Of a stretch of 63,645 bases of DNA, positions 60,136 to 60,330 are shown in pieces. Source of the DNA: Gracilibacillus oryzae (GTDB lineage Bacteria > Bacillota > Bacilli > Bacillales > Amphibacillaceae). Every line of letters begins with the position of its first letter. Position 1 is the stretch's first letter. The stretch is taken from the NCBI RefSeq assembly GCF_009498735.1, contig NZ_ML762425.1, positions 441,396 through 505,040 of the forward strand, read 5' to 3'. The notes under the pieces are model-generated. The model was not told where the DNA came from. It worked only from the letters and a program-made list of their open reading frames with translations, and did not search any database. The position numbers were made by a program, and so were the translations under genes.

Positions 60136-60228
60136 TTATGATGCCCGATGTTCAAGTCTTAATCTGTCTGCAACCATTGCGATAAACTCAGAATTCGTCG
60201 GTTTTGCCTTTGAAACACTGACCGTGTA
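60136..60228 (-). pseudogene. spo0A: Isolated 3' end of spo0A
   Basis: The minus strand encodes about 30 residues from [15 protein letters not shown] to RLRLEHRAS followed by TAA. This is the extreme C-terminus of the sporulation master regulator Spo0A (B. subtilis ends in [17 protein letters not shown] sequence and LRLEHKAS, from memory). Upstream of the Tyr codon the homology stops abruptly: the frame reads IIPMC instead of the expected LFG. The rest of the gene is absent up to the right edge. The natural spo0A terminator remains. Most likely the copy left outside an element that integrated into the 3' end of spo0A; the intact gene would then lie beyond the element. Confidence 0.88.
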
Positions 60229-60233
60229 GCACA

Positions 60234-60330
60234 TTGGTATAATAGGGTTTATGTTAATAAGCTTTCTAACTTTGTTGGGTTGTAATATAAGTAATTTATC
60301 GCCTTAATATTTAGTATTTGTTGGTATAAT
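60234..60330. repeat. Direct repeats next to the attachment junction
   Basis: TTGGTATAAT occurs at 60234-60243 and again at 60321-60330, the first copy 6 bp from the last spo0A-matching base. Such repeats may be arm-type integrase or excisionase sites. The gap from 60229 to 60447 holds no other recognisable gene. Confidence 0.4.

Follow-up and report, generated by a model that had tools for sequence, protein, structure and literature searches.

The principle that a tyrosine integrase can act at the 3' end of a conserved gene, with the end restored upon insertion, is already known. The dusA-associated integrases form a tyrosine-integrase family that is tied to one conserved gene and is found in prophages and genomic islands (PMC4482086), and streptococcal ICEs sit in the 3' ends of rpsI, rpmG, rplL, lysS and guaA (PMC4701971). 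Mobile elements also occur in sporulation genes of Bacillota, with skin residing in sigK and SPbeta in spsM (PMC4191935, PMC5025042). In Tn916, the terminator T1, located beside a start codon, was demonstrated to shield the genes of the element from host promoters (PMC11658703). Finally, the C-terminal domain of Spo0A (PF08769) was reported to be enriched in gut mobile elements of Firmicutes, which was read as a sign of element-carried sporulation genes (PMC6907783).

Here we describe a stretch of 63,645 bases from Gracilibacillus oryzae (the window), which forms the last part of contig C2 (505,040 bases) in a draft genome of 53 contigs and 4.63 Mb, and whose end is the end of that contig. A preliminary description of the window had proposed that an integrative element uses the 3' end of spo0A as its attachment site, and the integrase, the repeat and the empty sites reported below bear this out. 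We consider it very probable that an integrative element was placed in the 3' end of spo0A by a tyrosine integrase specific for this gene, and that the high end of the window is its right junction (attR), with the left junction (attL) on contig C15, a whole Spo0A, and a hairpin that would act as an insulator.

As in the dusA system, one conserved gene is the target and the cargo varies. However, the dusA integrases use the 5' end of dusA in Proteobacteria and intermingle with integrases of other targets (PMC4482086), whereas here spore-forming Bacillota have the 3' end of spo0A as the target, with no mixing of targets within the clade in the loci examined. The streptococcal ICEs similarly combine a tyrosine integrase with a direct repeat that restores the 3' end, and tandem accretion is known for such sites, but their repeats span 12-54 bp in housekeeping targets (PMC4701971), compared with 105 bp in a developmental regulator here. 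The skin and SPbeta elements interrupt their gene and must excise (PMC4191935, PMC5025042), while the spo0A element restores the reading frame at insertion; a skin-like, gene-interrupting element was rejected, as Spo0A is full length while the element is integrated. With T1 of Tn916 the locus shares a terminator-type hairpin near the element end and beside a start codon; T1 lies before orf24 in an element of low target specificity (PMC11658703), whereas the present hairpin precedes the integrase gene (int) at one fixed site and would have its function by analogy. Our search of the open-access literature, outside which most subscription papers lie, turned up no paper that names spo0A as an attachment site. 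Within the same literature, neither the target nor the breadth of the clade, the Spo0A tail exchange or the hairpin appears to have been described.

A displaced 3' end of spo0A at the right junction

The features of the window that bear on the junction are the following (labels beginning with G, C and L are our handles for genomes, contigs and loci).

60126-60230, - strand: attR repeat, the spo0A 3' end in its displaced copy, with 102/105 bases matching C15:78346-78450
60136-60228, - strand: last 30 codons of spo0A and stop, from the sequence and comparison with the full copy
60086-60118, - strand: terminator-like hairpin and T-run 3' of the displaced end, read from the sequence
60234-60250, + strand: 17-bp sequence with an inverted counterpart (one mismatch) at the other element end, L001:1851-1867; found by reading, the alignment covering 15 bp
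60448-61149, - strand: 233-aa ORF on the element side with a lipoprotein-like start (lipobox by eye) and no Pfam match
61395-61991, - strand: Replic_Relax protein of the element (PF13814, also phrog_2190, replication initiation protein); a relative lies beside attR in the G149 element
61924-63114, - strand: FtsK/SpoIIIE-like translocase of the element (PF01580 / phrog_1358); the relative in the G149 element is 56% identical
63355-63546, + strand: 63-aa Cro/C1-type HTH regulator of the element
59440-59970, - strand: LysM/CAP protein, the first chromosomal gene past attR; it follows spo0A in G023 and G032
57881-59227, - strand: aspartate kinase, chromosomal flank
55736-57427, - strand: sigma-54-type activator, bkdR-like by position, chromosomal flank

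The orphan 3' end of spo0A stands alone with its hairpin, just as had been described. Its similarity to the complete spo0A of the same genome is high (E 7e-45), and the three mismatches in the 105-bp repeat are all synonymous; the repeat is therefore not a chance resemblance. Homology had been thought to break off at the Tyr codon (60228); the identity of the DNA runs two bases beyond it. The hairpin at 60086-60118 is probably the native spo0A terminator, and the 17-bp inverted sequence is a possible arm site of the integrase. The neighbouring genes had been taken as accessory. This is true of the high side (60231-63645), but the other side carries the chromosomal LysM/CAP, aspartokinase, bkdR-like and ptb genes.

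The left junction and the empty site

The preliminary description had predicted a second junction, with an integrase gene, a near-identical end fused to the remainder of spo0A and spoIVB next to it, to be sought by extending the contig to the right. The contig has no further sequence there, but the predicted junction was found on C15. In a profile search, C15 holds the only Spo0A_C match of the genome at E <= 0.001. This spo0A lies downstream of spoIVB (TIGR02860, 535 bits) and encodes a full-length protein (TIGR02875, positions 2-262 of 262, 407 bits against a cut-off of 200). It is followed, after 167 bp and in the same orientation, by the gene of a 323-aa tyrosine recombinase (PF00589, 1.4e-26).

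On the element side of the repeat, the 17-bp inverted sequence with its one mismatch is present at both junctions. Among 33 elements, the inverted sequence common to an element's own two ends scores 9.5, against 7.4 for swapped ends (0/2000 permutations), with only 10 of the 33 exceeding the 95th percentile singly. The empty site is seen in two genomes of the same genus, G023 and G032, which are without an integrase of the spo0A clade and have the unbroken gene order spoIVB, spo0A, LysM/CAP, aspartokinase, bkdR-like, ptb. In the present genome this order is interrupted: spo0A is on C15 and the LysM/CAP gene on C2, which is what an insertion at the end of spo0A would produce. C15 stops 4.8 kb and C2 3.4 kb inside the element, and the two contigs are unjoined in the assembly; they would be linked physically through the element. 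The middle of the element was sought elsewhere in the genome with the tape-measure protein of G149, which gave only a weak match on C1 (34% over 115 residues). Both junctions, the repeat and the empty sites can be read directly from the DNA, and the element would be expected to excise.

According to the mechanism that we propose, a spo0A-specific tyrosine integrase would insert the element in the 3' end of spo0A. At attL, the spo0A of the host would run to the NSEFIAM codons and continue into the last codons and the stop of the element, followed by the 167-bp gap and int, such that Spo0A would remain full length with a C-terminus from the element. The native 3' end and its terminator would be displaced to the far side, giving the attR of the window. 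A stable hairpin just before int, whose 3' arm contains the Shine-Dalgarno sequence of int and is followed by a U-run, would replace the displaced terminator and keep spo0A read-through from making integrase.

An integrase clade with a constant target

Integrases of the clade are carried by 9 of 159 genomes of the family (51-100% identity), in every case directly downstream of spo0A; the other matches at E <= 1e-20 in these genomes are at most 32% identical, among the matches listed. None of 21 weaker relatives, viewed with 1.5 kb of flank, lies beside spo0A. The last 35 residues of Spo0A find a match in 155 of the 159 genomes. A second spo0A 3' end is present in eight of the nine carriers, and in the ninth (G061) the contig reaches no further than about 6 kb past int; there is none in the other 146 matching genomes, two extra hits being set aside. 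Hits set aside were those in G014 and on C58 of G015 (58% over 31 residues in frames of 391-394 codons, judged from the match row) and that in G082, a Spo0A_C-like protein by eye. This last one (L077, about 1300-1586) is a short Spo0A_C-like paralogue; no receiver domain is in view, and it has nothing to do with the attachment site.

Scanning 84,980 species genomes yielded 105 confirmed relatives; the 79 loci retained from these have 38-74% identity in the best segment. In 78 of them spo0A or its 3' part is directly upstream of int; in the exception, L130, the contig edge lies only 177 bp before int, and an orphan 3' end is found downstream. As seven scan loci repeat family genomes, there are 81 distinct loci, from Bacilli to Clostridia, 80 of which have spo0A sequence directly upstream. 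The stop of spo0A and the int match are 136-313 bp apart, with both genes in the same direction. In 26 further genomes, picked mostly because no orphan was present within the fetched 10 kb, a second 3' end was found on the same contig, 12.6-40 kb away, in 21; the remaining five, in which none was found, include Bacillus spizizenii TU-B-10. The hosts include Bacillaceae, Caryophanaceae, Paenibacillaceae, Clostridiaceae, Oscillospiraceae and Peptococcaceae, and metagenome assemblies make up many of the genomes.

A tree of 91 integrases places the 72 rows labelled spo0A (which include L130 and L176, with no spo0A in view) in one group with support 100/99, apart from 19 controls, and 0/500 label shuffles equal this. 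The tree leaves out both copies of the seven duplicated loci, five viral loci and integrases below 250 residues, and a warning about long branches meeting in it was issued by the program. Residues R174, K199, H264 and R267 are invariant in our alignment (A1), and the final Tyr is present in eight of nine sequences, being absent from the truncated L009; we take the R, K, HxxR, H and Y residues to be the catalytic set of tyrosine recombinases. An identity as XerC, XerD or XerA was rejected (133-148 bits against NCBIfam equivalog cut-offs of 220-335). No close relatives were found in isolated phages (3 of 50,697 records at E <= 1e-20, 24-31% identical) or in plasmids (5 of 72,556 records at the same threshold, also 24-31%). 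IMG/VR gave nine loci of 36-61% identity, three of which (L173, L177, L178) start with a spo0A end, the other six starting too near int to show spo0A. As judged from these comparisons, the clade has kept the spo0A 3' end as its target across Bacilli and Clostridia while its cargo changed. The end of spo0A thereby serves as a common docking site, used by prophages and satellite-like islands as well as by possible mobilizable elements and restriction-modification cargo. It is also possible that the PF08769 pieces noted in gut mobile elements (PMC6907783) are copies of the attachment site or boundary genes, which would be a simple account of Spo0A C-terminal pieces in such elements.

This breadth bears on whether the orphan 3' end is an attachment site at all. 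What speaks for an assembly artefact or a plain segmental duplication is that the genome is a draft of 53 contigs, with both relevant contigs ending within the supposed element. Yet the same arrangement recurs in many independent genomes, including G149, which is a single contig, and the integrase beside spo0A is always of one clade, so that an artefact or duplication has, in our judgement, next to no probability. Hardly more credible is a disruption of spo0A that would prevent sporulation until excision, as with skin in sigK, one of two outcomes that the preliminary description had left side by side. It is true that spo0A is split in two frames in a few carriers (L094/G129, L106 and L165), but in G129 the break is near codons 36-50, far from the junction, and in 72 of the 79 loci the spo0A frame is open over 256 codons or more. 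Of the remaining seven, the three just named are broken, L108 and L130 are cut by a contig edge, and L167 and L168 have only an orphan upstream of int. In the genome of the window Spo0A is full length, and it is the other outcome, a restored 3' end, that holds.

A hairpin between spo0A and the integrase gene

The int leader of this genome folds at -22.6 kcal/mol (z -7.8). Leaders before the integrase start have a median of -24.2 kcal/mol, with z <= -3 in 65 of 71 distinct leaders, and in 59 of the 71 at least half of the Shine-Dalgarno sequence is inside the 3' arm, often with a U-run after it. The 19 control integrases have a median of -14.0 kcal/mol and z <= -3 in 7; as they, too, pair the Shine-Dalgarno sequence (14 of 19), it is the stability and not the pairing alone that is special. 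Of the 71 leaders, 46 could be anchored for a test in which arms were swapped, and 35 non-redundant ones were kept: swapping weakened pairing from -11.1 to -6.3 kcal/mol, and 0/2000 permutations reached the value of the own arms. An RNAalifold consensus over 54 leaders gave 0 pairs on the raw alignment, which in our opinion results from misalignment of the arms by MAFFT; single-sequence folds, the arm-swap test and a comparison of strands were used in its place. No Rfam family matched at the gathering score in the four loci searched.

Gaps between spo0A and int were analysed in 78 of 80 loci, L130 and L165 being dropped. Our own terminator scan (hairpin of <= -10 kcal/mol with U-run) scores 46 of the 78 gaps, 19 of 32 orphan ends and 21 of 29 empty-site spo0A genes, which implies that many elements give spo0A a new terminator-like hairpin. 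Two motifs, TTTATTGG (51/78 gaps) and CCRAYAAAC (26/78), occur far above shuffles. Taken together, the folds predict a strong, covarying, terminator-like hairpin over the ribosome-binding site of int in most elements.

We favour a role for this hairpin in insulating int from spo0A transcription, which would be a counterpart to the loss of the native terminator. The opposite idea, in which read-through from spo0A drives int and the element senses sporulation, draws on the position of int after spo0A, in the same direction and only 136-313 bp past the stop. This fixed orientation goes back to a single descent and is thus not independent support; moreover, read-through would lead one to expect no terminator, while a strong terminator-like hairpin lies between the genes, and the gaps contain no excess of 0A-boxes (4 seen, 5.3 expected). 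Read-through as the driver of int accordingly seems unlikely to us. A more serious contender, which we regard as quite possible although we would not back it, is that the inverted repeat acts as DNA, being bound by the integrase or a regulator, or that it belongs to ordinary autoregulation of int. The two recurrent motifs are what one would see at protein-binding sites, and leader hairpins occur before some control integrases too. On the other side, the int-sense strand out-folds its complement in 71/71 leaders, against 15/19 controls, a comparison biased towards sense by the choice of spans on that strand; G-U pairs outnumber A-C mismatches by 257 to 2, a count biased by the folding; and the Shine-Dalgarno sequence is placed in the 3' arm in 59/71 leaders, often before a U-run.

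Exchange point and origin of the Spo0A tail

Junction pairs (attL/attR) were compared for 33 elements, 32 of which could be anchored (not G127). In G149, G155 and L156 homology starts only 6-11 bases before the GAA codon and nothing is shared further left, and in G149 the identical run stops 25 bases past that codon. These limits place the exchange in the N-S-E-F-I-A-M codons, within which the exact point would lie, and not in the YTVSVSKAK codons, where it had been supposed to lie. Several clostridial pairs have third-position mismatches inside the proposed core (e.g., 9/32 at +11), indicating that the core is not identical everywhere.

To the right of the exchange point, the copy fused to spo0A is that of the element. 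By this comparison the last 12-19 residues of Spo0A are supplied by the element, and sometimes altered. In G149 the orphan ends in LRLDYKAS, as does the empty-site relative G150, and the fused end is LRMEHKAS, with three residues changed. In Oscillibacter (L149) it is the tail RLLLEKKNGTGLLG that has been displaced, and the one now fused to spo0A, RLCLDMKKNHVG, also occurs in Pseudoflavonifractor (L148). Spo0A lacking its 15 C-terminal residues was reported to block sporulation at stage 0 (PMC9195935); the host should therefore depend on the copy of the element, which would supply most of the stretch whose loss blocks sporulation in a key regulator of that process.

To the left of the exchange point, the attR copy differs from the functional gene by 150 synonymous and 17 non-synonymous changes over about 670 codons (L145 and L149 left out; 670 is approximate, as three pairs without left homology count as -1 codon each). 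The copy, which differs almost only at third positions, is thus cleaner than expected of an untranslated one. Some copies resemble the gene of a different host more closely: over a 60-bp stretch left of the core, L132 matches the spo0A of L135 exactly but its own spo0A at only 80%. Such a clean copy could arise by gene conversion, with the functional copy as donor, or by homologous recombination when the element excises. One may further speculate, although we think it rather improbable, that an old integrase lineage of single origin made the Spo0A C-terminus a shared property of host and element, with elements that could tune sporulation and a tail that evolves partly by transfer. The system offers natural experiments on the C-terminus of Spo0A, together with a covarying hairpin whose proposed role as insulator can be tested.

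Spread and gene content of the elements

Five pairs of loci combine divergent spo0A genes with nearly identical integrases: L136/L137 (spo0A 77%, int 100%), L117/L133 (71%, 99%), L129/L131 (80%, 99%), L155/L156 (72%, 97%) and L148/L149 (60%, 94%), the identity of spo0A being measured 700-250 bases before the stop. These are five out of 15 pairs compared, the others contrasting less or not at all (e.g., L152/L153, 63% and 68%); L117/L133 and L148/L149 are isolates and the other three pairs metagenome assemblies. Such contrasts are a clear sign in the sequences that elements have been transferred between hosts. Paenibacillus macquariensis (L187, L186, L168; G184:C51 277000-333000) has, downstream of spo0A, three orphan 3' ends with a copy of the clade integrase after each, one of these copies in two frames; spo0A itself has no such integrase in the 14.7 kb checked. 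This array suggests tandem insertion. At another locus, L123, the start of a second integrase follows the orphan.

Cargo was surveyed through selected proteins. The 37.8-kb element of G015 is a prophage, with genes for large terminase, portal, major head, tape-measure and endolysin proteins. Those of G144, G046, G149 and G155 (12.8-21 kb) have small-terminase and/or tape-measure genes, and no capsid protein was found among the 3-6 proteins scanned in each, which is suggestive of satellite-like elements. In two of these, of 14-17 kb, tape-measure genes are found at L087:15247-17957 (G149, with a small terminase) and L089:12561-15860 (G155), and they are possibly phage satellites. At the attR end, the element of the window and that of G149 have FtsK-like (56%) and Replic_Relax (58-69%) genes in common. 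In IMEs, PF13814 is counted as a MobC relaxase, and in streptococcal IMEs PF13814/MobC goes with VirD4 and not with TcpA (PMC5357655); the present element has PF13814 and an FtsK-like protein, and PHROGs names its PF13814 protein a replication initiator. The smallest element, 2.0 kb in G129 (Terribacillus halophilus), has a truncated integrase, and the frame break in its spo0A (L085 3411-4186) is either real or a sequencing error. In B. spizizenii TU-B-10 (L188 8836-16181), an int of the clade downstream of spo0A is followed by the type I restriction-modification genes hsdM, hsdS and hsdR, past which the chromosomal order resumes with the bkdR-like gene and ptb.
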